Positions 10,633 to 21,415 of a stretch of 38,860 nucleotides of DNA are shown in pieces (the stretch's first letter is position 1; every line of letters begins with the position of its first letter). The position numbers and the translations under genes were made by a program. The notes under the pieces are model-generated. The model searched no databases. It had not been told where the DNA came from and saw only the letters and a list, made by a program, of their open reading frames with translations. This DNA is from Candidatus Spechtbacteria bacterium SB0662_bin_43 (GTDB taxonomy: Bacteria > Patescibacteriota > Minisyncoccia > Spechtbacterales > 2-12-FULL-38-22). The DNA lies in NCBI GenBank assembly GCA_009839835.1, contig VXOY01000032.1, forward strand, positions 1 through 38,860. The letters are read 5' to 3'.

Positions 10633-12324
10633 TCAGAACGTAACAATACCGTCTGTGCGAGAAATGTTCTCATCGTCAGGCAGTGAGGAATCAACAGAAG
10701 GAAGGACTTGCTCTATCACATCCTTTGCTTCAGCATCAAGCGCACGGAACGATGTTGGTTGGAGGATTTGAACAAGATTGCCCTCGTGCTCAGAGCGTGG
10801 AATCACCCATACAGCAAACGAAATTTCATCGTAGAAAAACGGATCTAATGTGTCCAACTCCCACACAACCTCCTTTTTCTCTTCGTCATAAAACAACGAA
10901 TCTTGTCTCACAGGATACACACTGCCACCAAAATCAACGTTATCGGGCAGTCGTGCAATGACTTTTACATTATTCAGTGCGCTCAAGCTGTTATGAATTC
11001 TCCAGTACACAACAAAACTGGTCTCCTCTCCAACAACAGGTGGAATAGGGCCATTCGCAGGAAAATACTGAGAAGAGTGTGTTACCCGTTGCGAAAATTG
11101 CGGGTTGCCTGTAAGCGACAACTCCTGTTGAGCTGTTTGACGCAACTCACCTCTCTTTTCTAAAGAGGCGCGCGCCTCTACCTCAATCAGAAAATCTTTT
11201 CTCTGGTCTGACGCAAGCCGTTCAAAATCCCGTACAGAGAATGAGAGGATTGCCCTCACCTCTTGTTGCTGCGGCAGAACACGGAACGTGTTCATAGTGA
11301 GGTAGCCCCACGAAATCTCATTGTTGTTCTTCTGGGATCCATACCCACCTGTTGCGGTCTGAATATCAACGAATTCTTCAGGGAGAACCGCGCTCACAAC
11401 AACATTACTCATATCTACATCTCCCTTATTTTTTACAATAATATCTAAAACAACCTCAGAACCTGATTTTACATTTTTACTATTACCTCTTTTGGCAACC
11501 TCTACCAAGAGTGGTGAGCTTGTAACACGTACTGCCTGCTGTGTTGCAAACAACGGCAGAAAGTCAAGACCTCTATAGTGCCCAACTTCCACAGTAAGGG
11601 AAAAACTATTGGAATCACCTTTCCACGTTCCAGTAAAATTCAAATCCTTCTTTTCTCCTCGTTTTACATCGTCAAGTCGCCACGCCAACTCTCTATCAAA
11701 GTCAGGCATAGAGTGTTCTATCTCAAACTCTTCAGGTGCAATAATCCGTGCGTATAAAGACGCCTTGTCAAGTGAGGAACGAGGTGTGATACGAATCACG
11801 CCCTCTAACTTTTCTTGAATATACACTTCTTTAGGAATATCAATCTCCACCTCTGCATCCAGAGAACCAATAATGATATTCTCCGATTCCTTCGTTGAGT
11901 ACCGAACATTAATGTCTTGAGGTGAATAATCAGCTCGTGCCTCCACCTTGACAGTCTTGTCGGTAGAGATAGCAGAGATGTTTGTGGCAATACGATGCTC
12001 CCTACCCGGATGCAAAGAATCAATGGTTGCGCTTTTGAGACGCATACCATCATCGAAGACTAACTCTTCTGGTAGATGGATGGCAATACGGATGTCTTCA
12101 ATAACAGATGTTGATCCATTATAGAGAGCAACCTCTATAGGAGTAGTACTCCCTCCCTCAATGCTTGCGGGTGCATCAATGATCAAATGAATATCGTCAC
12201 GGATAAAATCACCCCGAGAAAAATAAGTGAATACAATCGCACCTGTCAATAACACAAACGCAAGGAGCGCTGCTTGCCACATTTTCAGTACAGGAAATTT
12301 GTGTTTCGTAGTAGGTTTATCCAT
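10633..12324 (-). CDS. Membrane-anchored protein with DUF11-like beta-sandwich repeats
   Basis: The protein has 563 residues, with a short basic cytoplasmic N-terminus, one membrane segment at about 15-35 (MWQAALLAFVLLTGAIVFTY), and a long outside part. The outside part carries three or four immunoglobulin-like repeats of the DUF11/CARDB kind: recurring patterns such as NGSTSVIEDIRIAIHLPEEL, NKGDVDMSNVVVSAVLPEEF and NSLSALNNVKVIARLPDNV. Such proteins are structural or adhesive surface components. Its start overlaps the end of recO by 8 bases, so it is translationally coupled within a tRNA-synthetase operon, an odd place for a surface protein. No enzymatic motif is seen. Confidence 0.75.
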   Translation of the reverse strand: MDKPTTKHKFPVLKMWQAALLAFVLLTGAIVFTYFSRGDFIRDDIHLIIDAPASIEGGSTTPIEVALYNGSTSVIEDIRIAIHLPEELVFDDGMRLKSATIDSLHPGREHRIATNISAISTDKTVKVEARADYSPQDINVRYSTKESENIIIGSLDAEVEIDIPKEVYIQEKLEGVIRITPRSSLDKASLYARIIAPEEFEIEHSMPDFDRELAWRLDDVKRGEKKDLNFTGTWKGDSNSFSLTVEVGHYRGLDFLPLFATQQAVRVTSSPLLVEVAKRGNSKNVKSGSEVVLDIIVKNKGDVDMSNVVVSAVLPEEFVDIQTATGGYGSQKNNNEISWGYLTMNTFRVLPQQQEVRAILSFSVRDFERLASDQRKDFLIEVEARASLEKRGELRQTAQQELSLTGNPQFSQRVTHSSQYFPANGPIPPVVGEETSFVVYWRIHNSLSALNNVKVIARLPDNVDFGGSVYPVRQDSLFYDEEKKEVVWELDTLDPFFYDEISFAVWVIPRSEHEGNLVQILQPTSFRALDAEAKDVIEQVLPSVDSSLPDDENISRTDGIVTF

Positions 12325-12919
12325 ATATATGTTCTCTGACTGTCAAGCCAAAAAAATGAATTGGTGTATTAAAATGACGTTGGAGCGTTTGCTGCAGAGA
12401 GGCATCAATATCGTACCCAGGGCGGTCATTGAACGAAGAGACTATGCTATCATCTCCTACCCCCATTATACCAAGAAGTCTGTTCAACCATTGCTTTTCA
12501 GCATTCCACAACACCTCTTCTGTTTGATTCGTGCTACACTCTTCTACAATCCCTGCAACATCGTGTAGCGATGACACCAACAAATCCCACATACTCTCGT
12601 CTCGTTCATTGTCGTAGAGCAAGGTATTGCATAGTAGCAAAAAAGAGTAAAGATAGCCATACCCATACATTGTGCGCCCTATATCAGGAAACAAAGAAAT
12701 AGCAGACACACTACGCACAAAAGGAATATGTTTTCCCAAGATAAACACAATCCGCACCACTCCGAAATGATGGAGAAAGTGAGCTTGCTTGGTGGTAATT
12801 TTTTTTCCGCCACGGACTATCATCTGCATTTTACCAAATTCTCGAGTAAAAAAAGATACCTTCATGTCGTGTTCGCCGTAATCGTGCATATTCAATACAA
12901 TAGCGTCTGTTCCGTACAT
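12317..12919 (-). CDS. recO: DNA repair protein RecO
   Basis: The N-terminal 80 residues show the RecO OB-fold pattern: TDAIVLNMHDYGEHDMKVSF, TREFGKMQMIVRGGKK. The helical C-terminal domain follows (YLYSFLLLCNTLLYDNERDE). RecO works with RecR to load RecA onto SSB-coated single strands during gap repair. At 200 residues it is shorter than E. coli RecO (about 240) and lacks the four-cysteine zinc motif often seen in the C-terminal domain of other bacteria. It lies 5 bases after the ileS stop and overlaps the next gene. Confidence 0.8.
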   Translation of the reverse strand: MYGTDAIVLNMHDYGEHDMKVSFFTREFGKMQMIVRGGKKITTKQAHFLHHFGVVRIVFILGKHIPFVRSVSAISLFPDIGRTMYGYGYLYSFLLLCNTLLYDNERDESMWDLLVSSLHDVAGIVEECSTNQTEEVLWNAEKQWLNRLLGIMGVGDDSIVSSFNDRPGYDIDASLQQTLQRHFNTPIHFFGLTVREHIYG

Positions 12920-12924
12920 ACCAC

Positions 12925-15900
12925 CTATACAAATGGAGCAATAGAAAACATCACAACATCTTTATCGTTCACAGGAACCTCAACTTTTACCTCATTATGA
13001 AGGTGCGACACCCCTTCTTCTAAGGTACGTGCTCCTGTCTCGCTCGCTATTCTCTCCTTATCTCCATCAAAAATATCAGCCACCTGTTGTGGTACGCGGT
13101 AGTAAATAGCAATATCGTCAGACGCATGCAATCCAAGTGTTTTGCGAGCTTCCTGTATTCTGCGAATACATTCGCGTATCATGCCTTCGTGTTTCAGTTC
13201 GGGGGTAAGACGAATATCAAGTCCAACATCGTGCTCTTCGTCGTACTTCCAAGAGCCGTTATGATATTTTTCCTTGACAATTGACTCAACATTGACCTCT
13301 TCTCTGAGAAGATTGGAAAACGCAGACGATACGTGGCGCGGTAGAATAACCGCAGACAGAGGTTGACGTACCCGTATCTTATGCTCTGCCCGTACCCTCA
13401 ACACTGCCTGGGCGTACAGCCGTATAGAGTGCATAGAAGAAAGAATGGTCTTGTCCTGTTTTGTCATCTCCTTTCGTATCTTCCACTCCTCCCAATGAAC
13501 GCTCTGTTTCTGCGTATTGTGGATTGATTGCCACACCTCTTCTGCAATAAATGGAGTGAAAGGAGCGAGTAATTGAGCAGTCTCACTCAACACCCACAAC
13601 GCAACACGCGCTCGTTTCCTCAGCTCTTGAGACGAAGAGGGGCGCTGAAACGCGTTGCGCGATCTCCTGATATACCAACGAGAGAGGTCGTTCACAATAA
13701 AATCTTCCAAAGTGCGAGCCGCGTTCATAACATCGTACTCGTCTAAAAATGTTGCAACAGAAAGAGCAACCTCTCCAAGGCGAATGAGAATCCAGCGCTC
13801 CAGAACACTGTCTGCTCGCGGAGCACGGCTCGGCACTGTCTCGTTCGGAGCATAGGTGCGCACGAACAGGAACGAGTTATAAAACAGTGCAATGCTCGTC
13901 CGTTGCGCCTGCGCCACGTCTTTTTCAGTAAATCGTTTCACGTCCCCAGGGTTGTTCACGGTGAAAAAATACCAACGAACAGCGTCCATCCCATACTTAT
14001 CTGCCAACAATATCGGGTCAACGATATTACCCTTGCTCTTTGACATCTTCTTTCCTTTGCTATCCAGCACATGACCCAACGAGATGCCATTCCGAAATGG
14101 AGGGGTTGTAACGTTCGGAGACTGAACCATTGTACTCACAGCAAGAAGCGTATAAAACCACCCGCGTGTTTGATCTACTGCCTCGCTAATGTAGTCAGCA
14201 GGAAATACCTCACCCTTTTCTATCTGCTGTTTTCGCTGAAAGGGGTAGTGTGTACTTGCGTACGGCATCGCACCAGAATCAAACCATACATCTGCTAAGT
14301 AAGGTTCTCTCCTCATCACTCCTGTGTCGCATTTTTTACACGAGAATGTAATGTCGTCTATGTAGGGTCGGTGAAAATCAAGGTCGCCTTTATCATTGAT
14401 TGGAAACTGAGCGTACGAACAAACTTTATACGCACCAGGGGATAATTTTAATGCATCAAGTCGTGTAATAGTTTCATCTACCGTCCATCCTTGTATCGCC
14501 TTTTCTAATAAAAAGAGAGGGTCTCCATGACTTACAAGAGCAATCTTTTTCCCACTGTATTTTTTTTCTAAATCTTGTATAAAGCGAACCACTCGTTTCT
14601 GTACCTGCGTAAATGTTTCAGCACCCTTTGGAGCGTCAACGAACATCTTTCGTAGATCCGGGTACTCCTCGTCTAATAAACGTACAGATTTTCCCTCCCA
14701 CACGCCGTGTCGTGTTTCTGCTAATCGCTTGTCAACAATAACCTCTACACCCCCGAGTTGTTTCGAAATAATATCTGCTGTCTGCCGTGTTCGCAAAAAT
14801 GGTGATGTAAAAATAATATCAATACCTCCCTTTTTTTGAATATCCTCTGCTGTTTTTTGAACAACCTTACTACCTCTTGGCAACAAATCATACTCTACTG
14901 ATTCAGGATAGTCGCCAGCAAACAGCCCTTTTGAATTTTTTGCAGTCTCTCCATGCCGCACAAGGATATACGAGTTGCGCCCCTTTGTCGCTTCTGCAAT
15001 ATCTTTTCGCGAACCCAGTACAGAAAGGGCATCGCACTCTTGCGCGTCACAACGCCAAATAGGGAGGGGAGTCCCCCAGTAGCGGGAACGGGACAGTGCC
15101 CAGTCCTTTACATCAACAAGCCACTCTCCAAATCGCCCATTCTTGATGTGCTGAGGAACCCAATTGATTGCGTTGTTTGCTTCAATCAAATCGTCTTTCA
15201 ACGCGCTCATCCGTAAAAACCACGAGTGTCGTGCGTAATAAATGAGCGGAAGAGAACAACGCCAACAGAACGGGTACGAGTGTTTATAGCGTTCCTTTTT
15301 ATAGAGCAGTGAACGTTTTTTCAACGCATCAATGATAAGCGAATCCGACTCCTTAGCGTTCTTTCCTTTCCAACCCTTCACAAGGTTATTGAACGCACCG
15401 TCAAGATTAACAGTATGAACAACAGGAAGACCGTGCTTGAGAGCCAATTGATAGTCGTCATCTCCGTACGGAGGAGCAATATGAACAACACCTGTGCCCT
15501 CACCTGTTGTAACAAAATCTGCTCCATACACACAAAACGCTTCGTCTGTATCGCTGTGCTCACGCAAGGCATCAAACGGTGGGTCGTATCGTAACCCAAC
15601 AAGATCTTTCCCTGAAATGGTTCGTATTTTTTTGAACGAATCTCCCAAAACACTCACTTGCTCCTCTGCAATAATAAAGTGTTCGTTCTCCTGTTCTACC
15701 ACTGCGTACGGTATCTTTTCACCAACCGCAAGCGCAATGTTGGCGGGGAGTGTCCAGGGCGTTGTAGTCCAAACCAAAATACTCGTTCCTTCTGGAATAG
15801 TGTCGGATTGAGTGTTGTGGACACGAAACCGCACAAAAACACTCTGGTCAACAACATCTTCATACCCTTGCGCCACTTCGTGCGAGGAAAGCGAGGTGCC

Positions 15901-16431
15901 GCATCTGGTACAAAACGGAGAAACGCGATACCCCTCATAGAGTATGTCTTTTTTAAACGCTTGGGACAAAACCCAAAACAACGACTCCATATAGAGCGGG
16001 TCGTAGGTAGTGTATGGATCACTCACATCAACCCAATAACCCATTCGCTCGGTCAAATGTTCCCACTCCTGCCGATACCTCCACACAGAATCGCGACATC
16101 GCTGGTTAAACTTCGCAATACCGTACTCTTCAATATCTTTTTTGTTCTTAAAACCCAACTCTTTTTCAACCTGTATCTCAACAGGCAGACCGTGCGTATC
16201 CCATCCTGCTCGCCTCTCAACACGGTACCCCCGCATCGTCTTATAGCGGCACATAACGTCCTTGAACGACCGTGCCAAAATATGATGCAATCCAGGCATC
16301 CCATTCGCTGTTGGCGGTCCTTCGTAGAAAACAAACCGCTTGTTTTTCGGACGCAACAAAACACTCTTTTCAAATGCTTTTATTGCTCTCCATCGTTTTA
16401 TAACTTGTTCTTCCAGAGGTGCAAACTCCAT
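12925..16431 (-). CDS. ileS: Isoleucyl-tRNA synthetase with inserted histidine-phosphatase domain
   Basis: The 1168-residue class I synthetase has its HIGH-type motif in MPGLHHILAR (residues 45-54), an editing (CP1) domain with WTTTPWTLPANIA at 221-233, KMSKS at 795-799, and the C-terminal anticodon-binding region. It belongs to the long (type 2, eukaryote-like) IleRS group. Unusually, residues about 485-680 are a complete histidine phosphatase (phosphoglycerate-mutase-like) domain: LVRHGET (catalytic His493), SPFLRTRQTA (Arg547), AETRHGVWEG (Glu572) and ALVSHGD (His635). It splits the synthetase between WRCDAQEC and CKKCDTGVMRREP, two cysteine pairs likely forming one zinc site. All four catalytic phosphatase residues are present, so activity is plausible. 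The substrate is unknown. The gene lies between argS and recO in one operon. Confidence 0.95.
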   Translation of the reverse strand: MEFAPLEEQVIKRWRAIKAFEKSVLLRPKNKRFVFYEGPPTANGMPGLHHILARSFKDVMCRYKTMRGYRVERRAGWDTHGLPVEIQVEKELGFKNKKDIEEYGIAKFNQRCRDSVWRYRQEWEHLTERMGYWVDVSDPYTTYDPLYMESLFWVLSQAFKKDILYEGYRVSPFCTRCGTSLSSHEVAQGYEDVVDQSVFVRFRVHNTQSDTIPEGTSILVWTTTPWTLPANIALAVGEKIPYAVVEQENEHFIIAEEQVSVLGDSFKKIRTISGKDLVGLRYDPPFDALREHSDTDEAFCVYGADFVTTGEGTGVVHIAPPYGDDDYQLALKHGLPVVHTVNLDGAFNNLVKGWKGKNAKESDSLIIDALKKRSLLYKKERYKHSYPFCWRCSLPLIYYARHSWFLRMSALKDDLIEANNAINWVPQHIKNGRFGEWLVDVKDWALSRSRYWGTPLPIWRCDAQECDALSVLGSRKDIAEATKGRNSYILVRHGETAKNSKGLFAGDYPESVEYDLLPRGSKVVQKTAEDIQKKGGIDIIFTSPFLRTRQTADIISKQLGGVEVIVDKRLAETRHGVWEGKSVRLLDEEYPDLRKMFVDAPKGAETFTQVQKRVVRFIQDLEKKYSGKKIALVSHGDPLFLLEKAIQGWTVDETITRLDALKLSPGAYKVCSYAQFPINDKGDLDFHRPYIDDITFSCKKCDTGVMRREPYLADVWFDSGAMPYASTHYPFQRKQQIEKGEVFPADYISEAVDQTRGWFYTLLAVSTMVQSPNVTTPPFRNGISLGHVLDSKGKKMSKSKGNIVDPILLADKYGMDAVRWYFFTVNNPGDVKRFTEKDVAQAQRTSIALFYNSFLFVRTYAPNETVPSRAPRADSVLERWILIRLGEVALSVATFLDEYDVMNAARTLEDFIVNDLSRWYIRRSRNAFQRPSSSQELRKRARVALWVLSETAQLLAPFTPFIAEEVWQSIHNTQKQSVHWEEWKIRKEMTKQDKTILSSMHSIRLYAQAVLRVRAEHKIRVRQPLSAVILPRHVSSAFSNLLREEVNVESIVKEKYHNGSWKYDEEHDVGLDIRLTPELKHEGMIRECIRRIQEARKTLGLHASDDIAIYYRVPQQVADIFDGDKERIASETGARTLEEGVSHLHNEVKVEVPVNDKDVVMFSIAPFV

Positions 16432-16452: not shown

Positions 16453-18189
16453 CTACATTGAATCAGGGTGGGATATACCCATTAAGTCAAGTGTGCTTTG
16501 CAGTACAACACCCGTTGTTGCAACCAGCGCCAAACGCGCTTTGTGAACCGTACCATCCTCTATCACGCGACAATCCCGATAGAATTGGTTGAACTGACGG
16601 GCAACCTCCAACACAAAAGAGCTCAAAAGATGAACCTGATAGTGTTGCGCAACCTCTTCTACAACATCAGGGGTGCGAACAATGCTACGCAACAACCGCA
16701 TCTCTTGCTCTGTGTGGAGCTCGTCCAGCGCGGATGGCTCAGGGCGCTCACCGCACTCTTCTGCTTTTTTTACAATACTACAAATCCGTGCGTTCGTATA
16801 TTGAATATAATAAACAGGGTTCTTGTTGGTTGTCTGGGTTGCAAGATCTAAATCAAACTCCATCTGCGAATTGAGGGATTTTGTAAGGTAAAAGTACCGC
16901 GCAACATCAACTCCAACCGCGTCTATCATGTCAGACATCGTAATAATCGTGCCTTTTCGCTTTGATAACTTTTCACCGTTTTTGAGACGCACCAACTGGG
17001 CGATGAGGATATGGAATTGGAATGGAGAAATATCTTCCCCATACACCTCTTGCACTGCTGCACTCAATCTTGGTTTATGCCCTTGATGGTCTGCGCCCCA
17101 GATGTCTATAAGGGTCGTAAACCCTCGCTTGAGCTTATCAACGTGATACGCAATGTCTGCCAGAAAATACGTGTTTTCACCATTGGAACGAACCAAAACA
17201 TTATCTTGGCTCAAGCCCAGCTCTTTTGTTCTCAGCCACAGTGCTCCTTCGCTCTCATACACCAAATCTCCCATCGTGCCAGAGTCAAACATCTCATCAT
17301 CCTCTGTCATCTGCTCTTCACTCACCTGAACCCTGCTCTTCAAAAGATCAATTACCTCGCGTATTGCTCTTCCATTGTTTTCATACAAATCCTCTTCTTC
17401 TTTCCATACATCAAACGCAATACCTGCTTTTTGTTCTAAAAATGCAGCAATATCTTTTTGAATTGCACCTGCCATCACATAACCCGCTTCTGCGTACGAC
17501 TTACACCGTTCTATCTCGTCACGGTGCTGCGCTATTTTTGTATCCAAATACTCCCCTTTGTACGACTCGCCTTCTCCTTGTACTGTTTTGCCCAGCTCTT
17601 GTATCTGCACGCTGTGCTGTGCGTTGTTGATGTAGTACTCGCGCGTAACATCGTACCCTGATGCAGATAATACCCGCCCCAGCACATCGCCATAGAACGC
17701 GGTACGGGCGTGCCCAACGTGCAACTCGCCCGTTGGATTCACTGACACAAACTCAAGGTTCAATTTCTCACCCTTGCCCACCTGCACAAAACGCGGAGAG
17801 GTATTTTTGAACGTATCGTGCGCTTGACGGATGAGCGCTGACGGTGCAAGATAAAAATTAATATACCCTGGTGCTACTGCCTCGCAACGAGAACAATACG
17901 AGGAAAACGCCTCGTTTTCTTGCAAGAGAGCACAGAGCTGTTGAGCGACCTCAAGAGCGGTCGCGTTGCTATACTGTGCCAATTCCATAATAGGCAACGA
18001 GTAATCGCCGTGATCCAGCCGAGACGAGTGCTTCATTGTATAAAAAGTCCGCTCACGGACAACCTTTCCGATAGCATCAGTGTCCTTATCCAGCGATTCG
18101 TTGTGGACAAAAAGCCCCTCCTTGTGAGCGTTCTTAATGCTTTCCCATAGTAAATCGTGCAGTTCCTCGCGGATAGTTTTTGTAGGCAT
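16453..18189 (-). CDS. argS: Arginyl-tRNA synthetase
   Basis: Charges tRNA-Arg. This 578-residue protein has the N-terminal additional domain, then NPTGELHVGHARTAFYGDVL (HIGH-type motif at about residues 157-160), DIWGADHQGHKPRL, the KMSKS-equivalent KLSKRKGTIITMSDMI, and a DALR anticodon-binding domain ending with PDSM. The length is normal. It is the first gene of the leftward synthetase operon and diverges from smpB with 29 bases between the start codons. An extended -10 box (TGGTAAAAT at 18201-18196 for the hexamer) ends 6 bases upstream of the ATG, hinting at a very short or absent leader. Confidence 0.96.
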   Translation of the reverse strand: MPTKTIREELHDLLWESIKNAHKEGLFVHNESLDKDTDAIGKVVRERTFYTMKHSSRLDHGDYSLPIMELAQYSNATALEVAQQLCALLQENEAFSSYCSRCEAVAPGYINFYLAPSALIRQAHDTFKNTSPRFVQVGKGEKLNLEFVSVNPTGELHVGHARTAFYGDVLGRVLSASGYDVTREYYINNAQHSVQIQELGKTVQGEGESYKGEYLDTKIAQHRDEIERCKSYAEAGYVMAGAIQKDIAAFLEQKAGIAFDVWKEEEDLYENNGRAIREVIDLLKSRVQVSEEQMTEDDEMFDSGTMGDLVYESEGALWLRTKELGLSQDNVLVRSNGENTYFLADIAYHVDKLKRGFTTLIDIWGADHQGHKPRLSAAVQEVYGEDISPFQFHILIAQLVRLKNGEKLSKRKGTIITMSDMIDAVGVDVARYFYLTKSLNSQMEFDLDLATQTTNKNPVYYIQYTNARICSIVKKAEECGERPEPSALDELHTEQEMRLLRSIVRTPDVVEEVAQHYQVHLLSSFVLEVARQFNQFYRDCRVIEDGTVHKARLALVATTGVVLQSTLDLMGISHPDSM

Positions 18190-20758: not shown

Positions 20759-21415
20759 TTATTCGAATACCCCCCATGCTGCTTGCCTTTGATGATATAG
20801 AGACCTTACTTCATCCAAGTCCTCTTCTTGAACATCTCCCAACAAATCGTTTTCACCACTTTTTGTTGTGCTAATAAGCTCTTGTATTTTTATATCCTCC
20901 CATGTTTGACTGTCATCAAACTTTGCCCCTTCGGGATACTTGTGTGTCTCTTGCCACAACCTATCGTCAGATGTATCATCGGTAAGAAATGTATGGAACG
21001 CGTCCCATACTGCTCGTAAAGCGGCTATATCTGATTGCGACAACACCTTATCATCAACCTTCTTTTTTGAGGATATACGAATTGACTGAGACGCACCATC
21101 TCTTTTCTGAGCACTATCATCATAGTGTATATCCAAAAAATCTTTTGCGTATTTTATATTACTCACATCCACTTCTCCTTCCCTGTCTAACGCTATGGTC
21201 TCAATCAAGTCAATGGTATCTCTCGCAACAGGACCATACTGCTTTGCTTTATAAGAATCTCCAGTGATAGTGCGAATGGTTGACTCACGAAGATGTTTTT
21301 TATCCGCAAAGTATATAAGTTTTAGGGCATTTGTTTTACGCAATACTTTTCCTTCTTTCTCAGCTTGTATCGCAAAAAAGTTCAGCGCCTGAACTTTTTT
21401 TTGGTAATTGGACAT
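20759..21415 (-). CDS. Panacea-domain (DUF4065 / SocA-like) antitoxin
   Basis: This 218-residue protein has the Panacea pattern in its N-terminal part: VQALNFFAIQAEKE, TNALKLIYFADKKHLRES and TITGDSYKAKQYGPVARD, matching the KLxYFAD...YGPV signature. The middle section (SQSDIAALRAVWDAFHTF) and SRLWQETHKYPEG-like end DRLWQETHKYPEGAKF are also typical. Panacea proteins act as antitoxins for many unrelated toxins and serve as proteolysis adaptors in some (SocA). The gene is first in a leftward pair with the putative toxin. A perfect dyad at 21430-21442 just upstream may be its operator. The surrounding genes are housekeeping, so the pair looks like an insertion between pgk and rplT. Confidence 0.85.
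   Translation of the reverse strand: MSNYQKKVQALNFFAIQAEKEGKVLRKTNALKLIYFADKKHLRESTIRTITGDSYKAKQYGPVARDTIDLIETIALDREGEVDVSNIKYAKDFLDIHYDDSAQKRDGASQSIRISSKKKVDDKVLSQSDIAALRAVWDAFHTFLTDDTSDDRLWQETHKYPEGAKFDDSQTWEDIKIQELISTTKSGENDLLGDVQEEDLDEVRSLYHQRQAAWGVFE

Follow-up and report, generated by a model that had tools for sequence, protein, structure and literature searches.

The ileS gene in the window (the whole analysed stretch of DNA, 38,860 nucleotides, from Candidatus Spechtbacteria bacterium SB0662_bin_43) encodes an isoleucyl-tRNA synthetase (IleRS) with a complete histidine phosphatase (HP) domain nested in the loop of its zinc module. This arrangement is real and conserved, and HP domains recur in several loops of IleRS and in valyl-tRNA synthetase (ValRS). 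It is apparently undescribed in the searchable literature: a search of open-access papers returned none on HP inside IleRS or ValRS, and no passage on it was found, with the terms used, in AARS Online or in a 2026 survey of domain insertions. Annotation pipelines call such proteins plain IleRS, which conceals the phosphatase.

The ileS frame is a single uninterrupted ORF of 1168 amino acids (Table 1). Its product was matched by the Pfam families tRNA-synt_1, His_Phos_1, Anticodon_1, and DUF5915, and by the NCBIfam ileS model TIGR00392 with 855 bits (cut-off 621). The protein scored 755.8 bits against Thermus thermophilus IleRS (1ILE) and 749 bits against 8c8w, compared to 325 bits against the IleRS1 8c9f, and is thus type-2-like. 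When the predicted model of the protein was searched with Foldseek, type-2 IleRSs (8c8w and others) were again the top PDB matches, in the same order as in the sequence search. Lys795, Ser797, and Lys798 of the KMSKS signature are invariant. No part of the synthetase itself is missing, and the protein should remain able to charge tRNA-Ile. Two further genes of the window were recorded, both on the reverse strand: one that lies amid the translation-gene cluster (10633-12324) and whose product of 563 residues contains DUF11 and may be a surface protein, and a SocA/Panacea-type antitoxin-like gene (20759-21415).

Table 1. Features of the window around and within ileS (aa, residue numbers of the ileS product).
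Feature	Position	Strand	Evidence or remark
ileS, IleRS type-2-like with nested HP	12925..16431	-	ORF, Pfam, NCBIfam, 1ILE alignment, Foldseek
Insert as compared with Thermus IleRS, aa ~484-683	14383..14982	-	1ILE alignment break; loop comparison across many IleRSs
HP domain, branch 1, PF00300, aa 489-653	14473..14967	-	E 2.6e-34; 119 bits vs. cut-off 21.7
RHG motif, R492 and H493 (predicted phospho-acceptor His)	14953..14958	-	
Catalytic R547 in SPFLRTRQTA	14791..14793	-	
General-acid E572 in ETRHGVWEG	14716..14718	-	
Second catalytic His, H635 in SHGD	14527..14529	-	
First Cys pair of zinc module, C461/C466	15034..15051	-	Found in ≥90% of the fused relatives; aligns with 1ILE
Second Cys pair of zinc module, C698/C701	14329..14340	-	Found in ≥90% of the fused relatives
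KMSKS signature, aa 795-799, intact	14035..14049	-	
argS, 21 nt upstream of ileS	16453..18189	-	PF05746, PF00750
recO-like gene, 5 nt downstream of ileS	12317..12919	-	PF11967

The first-pass annotation, made from the sequence alone, had proposed a complete HP within IleRS, with the motifs RHGE, SPxxRxxQTA, ExxxGxWEG, and SHGD, placed between two CxxC-like pairs. The domain and its four motifs were located where it had placed them, between C461/C466 and C698/C701 within the frame that scores as ileS, and the RHG motif stands in the context R492-H493-G-E. The limits proposed for the insert, residues 485-680, were right as to position and were refined to ~484-683, with the HP fold covering residues ~487-674. 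The alignment with 1ILE breaks at query residues 483/684, which correspond to 1ILE residues 482/488, and the window protein has ~200 residues where Thermus IleRS has ~5. The insertion point is the loop that separates C461/C466 from C698/C701; the four Cys residues aligned with these bind zinc in Thermus IleRS. The PF00300 match inside IleRS is the only one in the genome of the window (G000), and its chance expectation is negligible. This genome is a 755 kb draft in 32 contigs, which would leave room for an assembly or sequencing join. However, the same insertion in the same loop was found in dozens of independent genomes, which refutes a join and leaves its probability practically nil.

An AlphaFold model of the window protein, built on a 44-sequence alignment, had a mean pLDDT of 90.5 and a pTM of 0.83. 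In the HP region (residues 489-660), pLDDT was mostly 87-97 per 10-residue block, with one block at 80. This high-confidence model predicts the insert to be a folded nested domain.

Residue conservation was counted over 86 IleRS-borne HP domains. The first catalytic Arg was present in 83/84 and the first His in 84/84 of these domains, and the second Arg and second His in all 86. The general-acid Glu was found in 81/86 and Asp in a further four, whereas the residue that follows RHG is variable among the fused relatives. Disabled catalytic sites in most relatives, which would have refuted the first-pass annotation, were not encountered. For pairs with unsaturated dS, the counting method gave dN/dS of 0.08-0.15 for HP (0.21 for the window and L003), similar to the 0.07-0.18 of the synthetase core; these ratios are rough because dS is high even in such pairs. 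At the protein level, HP evolves somewhat faster than the core in most pairs. A dN/dS of ~0.1 argues against an inert spacer. The retained residues suggest that branch-1 HP chemistry may operate in the insert. A fused HP whose RHG motif is intact need not be active, however: in mycobacterial MutT1, no activity of the RHG domain was seen in the assays used (PMC11784022).

The nearest solved relatives of the window HP are phosphatases and not mutases, namely PspA (4IJ5; E 3.6e-17, or 4.9e-29 with a profile) and PhoE (1EBB/1H2E). The branch-1 enzymes PspA of Hydrogenobacter, PhoE, and CobC share with it the fold family, the RHG motif, the second Arg, the Glu, and the second His. In contrast to the window HP, which is nested in an aminoacyl-tRNA synthetase, they are free enzymes of ~200 residues. 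The window HP reached no cut-off of a specific NCBIfam subfamily: it scored 75 bits against PspA (NF045917; cut-off 350), 79 bits against cofactor-dependent phosphoglycerate mutase (dPGM, NF038349; cut-off 225), and 75 bits against the alpha-ribazole phosphatase CobC (TIGR03162; cut-off 163). Enzymes of this subgroup act on very different substrates, one example being a riboflavin-pathway phosphatase of Aquifex whose closest structural relative is also PspA (PMC12051542), and similarity therefore cannot give the substrate here.

With type-2 IleRSs (1ILE, Priestia IleRS2 8c8w, and MupA/B-like enzymes), the window protein has in common the editing domain, KMSKS, the Cys pairs, and the C-terminal domains, and it differs from them in that the loop of its zinc module is longer by ~200 residues. 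A precedent exists only in kind. The NCBIfam family ileS_w_GNAT (NF040702) likewise has an enzyme domain inside IleRS, but this domain is an N-acetyltransferase; the window protein scored 297 against its cut-off of 1999, and the Pfam scan of the window protein found no GNAT domain. Among the best 25 of 32 NCBIfam families matched, none was a model for IleRS plus HP. The CP1 editing domain of LeuRS, IleRS, and ValRS is also a catalytic domain nested in class Ia synthetases. It is ancient and universal and acts on misacylated tRNA, whereas HP was added later, separately from it, in a different loop. HP is likewise joined to a nucleic-acid or nucleotide enzyme in the RNase H/acid phosphatase fusion (NF005567) and in mycobacterial MutT1 (Nudix plus HP; PMC11784022), but these fusions are end-to-end and with other partners, while the window HP is inserted within another domain.

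The supposition that the fusion might be shared by related lineages was borne out by a survey of PF00300 within IleRS. The class to which the window belongs was sampled with 112 genomes, and at E ≤ 1e-8 PF00300 was present in 91 of them. Among the matches listed, it lay inside a frame of >700 residues in at least 74 of the 112 genomes, and in 17 it occurred in shorter frames only. The fetched loci with the long frames are nearly all IleRS, ~40 of them confirmed, and a few are ValRS. In 21 of the 112 genomes no frame matched PF00300 at this threshold; some of these genomes are rated 100% complete, and the HP function is therefore dispensable. In Patescibacteria outside the class the fusion is patchy. 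Yanofskybacteria, Nomurabacteria, Peregrinibacteria, and Paceibacterota are among the named relatives that have it. A junction profile marked ~45-50 fused IleRSs in the 287 genomes of the phylum survey. Beyond Patescibacteria, the sampling covered two phyla, Chloroflexota and Bacillota, and was not exhaustive over phyla. The same junction profile, at an E ≤ 1e-36 at which it does match Patescibacteria, found no fusion in 301 Chloroflexota or in 300 Bacillota genomes. One fusion labeled Spirochaetia (L064, QYPD01000003.1) was set aside, as its IleRS groups among Patescibacteria and its genome has only 400 kb; the label is probably wrong.

The history of the fusion was followed on a tree of the IleRS core computed with HP removed. 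This tree contains at least 15 changes between the fused and the unfused state, and in single-label counting 8-12 changes of label are required by its well-supported branches. Neither count separates gain from loss, and some of the changes could stem from the transfer of entire ileS genes. Sister rows differ in state, as seen for L005 (fused) and L024 (unfused) and for two genomes of the same family, G004 (fused) and G005 (unfused). The HP tree suggested several independent origins of the insert at the IleRS loop, but a single origin of all HPs nested there was not rejected (AU p 0.12). The insertions in different loops and in the ValRS host need separate insertion or transfer events. The fused-like linker IPRN..DLHRPY in the insert-less L024, L025, and L031 was considered as a deletion scar and dismissed, since the unrelated insert-less L103 has the same segment.

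Nested domains are not limited to one HP in one loop. Two tandem HPs were found in the IleRS of Peregrinibacteria-like relatives (L143, L144, L159, L075, and L077), and in a 1572-residue IleRS (L153:1167-5882, genome G273) three separate sites each hold one HP. ValRSs with an HP at the loop equivalent to the IleRS loop were found in L146-L150 and L163. Other enzymes accompany HP in some of these proteins. An IleRS of genome G079 (L152:1638-5990) combines an HP near or before the anticodon domain with an insert that resembles a GNAT acetyltransferase, and on the same contig a 1278-residue ValRS frame has two HP matches and appears to hold two HPs. Serine-hydrolase, Nudix, and HP domains are nested in a 1544-residue IleRS (L145:141-4772, genome G311), and HAD-like, serine-hydrolase, and HP domains in a ValRS (L151:327-4157, genome G259).

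HP is also linked to ileS as a separate gene. In genomes G023, G304, and G326, a stand-alone HP gene directly precedes an insert-less ileS and ends at or overlaps its start. These loci were chosen for looking linked; of the 17 class genomes whose HPs lie in short frames only, at least three have such a gene. The HP frames of L156 and L191 end in stop codons that overlap the ATG of ileS, and their last codons contain an AGGAG-like ribosome-binding sequence for ileS (L156:2350-2450 and L191:1990-2090). The tails of the stand-alone HPs, TGEFRKL and KPGECRKI, resemble the C-terminal stretch of the nested domains. In the HP tree, the ileS-linked stand-alone HPs are placed inside the main nested-HP clade (63 rows, SH-aLRT 95).

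On balance, we lean towards the interpretation that the insert is an active nested phosphatase kept for its co-production with the synthetase, with a substrate that is not isoleucine-specific. A complete PspA/PhoE/CobC-like HP that folds on its own would have been inserted into the zinc-module surface loop of IleRS in an ancestor of much of the window's class. The chemistry of branch-1 HPs is well established. By analogy, H493 would attack a phosphomonoester held by R492, R547, and H635, E572 would protonate the leaving group, and the phospho-histidine would then be hydrolyzed. Nesting would fix the phosphatase and the synthetase at 1:1, the synthetase being essential and constitutively made, and the separate HP gene that overlaps the ileS start in sister lineages would reach much the same co-production. 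We infer that fixed co-production with an essential enzyme is the advantage that best fits all of these arrangements. Because HP occurs in both IleRS and ValRS, is doubled or tripled in some IleRSs, and is absent from the 21 class genomes, it is neither isoleucine-specific nor essential, and a general housekeeping phosphomonoester is a likelier substrate than an isoleucine-specific product. The MutT1 precedent, the dispensability of HP within the class, and the departure of a few relatives at one catalytic position (Glu to Asp in four) count against the co-production interpretation, and the repeated state changes could also fit a loosely selected passenger.

The first-pass annotation had suggested that the insert could act on a nucleotide or an aberrant aminoacylation product and so link isoleucine charging to phosphate metabolism, which the analysis did not support. 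A direct action of HP on charging is possible. HP would then remove products or by-products of IleRS and ValRS or one of their substrates when damaged (candidates are AMP, a phosphorylated tRNA end, or a phosphorylated amino acid analogue), or dephosphorylate a protein that regulates the synthetase. The equivalent loop in the two synthetases and the gene overlapping ileS are consistent with this, as is Nudix, another small phosphohydrolase, nested in one relative; for the related arrangements of SixA and MutT1, protein phosphohistidine targets are reported. We nevertheless consider such a role rather unlikely. Close relatives lack HP in IleRS (G004 is fused, G005 is not), the fusion was not found in the tested Chloroflexota and Bacillota, and the same proteins also hold GNAT and serine-hydrolase domains, which clash with a single aminoacylation-linked chemistry. 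Another explanation is that HP is a passenger: the loops would tolerate compact enzymes, exact in-frame removal would be rare, and any activity would be incidental. The variety of inserted domains and of loops that hold them, the tandem and triple HPs, and the patchy distribution all agree with this explanation, but the near-invariance of the catalytic residues in 86 domains and an HP dN/dS close to that of the essential core make it quite improbable. Moreover, clean insert-less relatives indicate that removal or replacement does occur.

A role of HP as the glycolytic phosphoglycerate mutase or as a serine-pathway phosphoserine phosphatase is very improbable. It is suggested by PspA, an HP-type phosphoserine phosphatase and the closest solved relative, and by the His of ETRHG/EIDHG, which the window protein and PspA share. 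This His, however, is not conserved in most fused relatives, and the PspA and dPGM scores are far below the NCBIfam cut-offs, so the phosphoserine phosphatase role was rejected. The mutase role was rejected as well: G000 has its own separate PF01676 (iPGM-type) protein of iPGM size (545 residues), and glycolysis should therefore not need the HP domain. PF01676 proteins are also present in 29/35 relatives, and G009 lacks both HP and PF01676.

In a large part of a mostly uncultured, genome-reduced radiation, an essential and highly conserved translation enzyme bears a second, apparently live catalytic domain. The many state changes, together with the counterparts in ValRS and in overlapping genes, offer a testable case of what is gained from nesting enzymes. 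A broader proposal, which we regard as doubtful, is that small hydrolases (HP, Nudix, HAD, serine hydrolase) and GNAT enzymes have repeatedly settled in the class Ia synthetases of Patescibacteria, with the nested HP tied in function to Ile/Val charging; synthetase and phosphatase would then make up a single undescribed bifunctional system across much of bacterial diversity.

HP domains were also observed in two other contexts. In genomes G306 and G255, which belong to one phylum family, a DedA/VTT-type membrane protein has a C-terminal HP (L154:1773-3158 and L155:1323-2660). In Urinicoccus massiliensis (Bacillota), a stand-alone HP gene starts a few nucleotides after ileS (L129:7828-8436).
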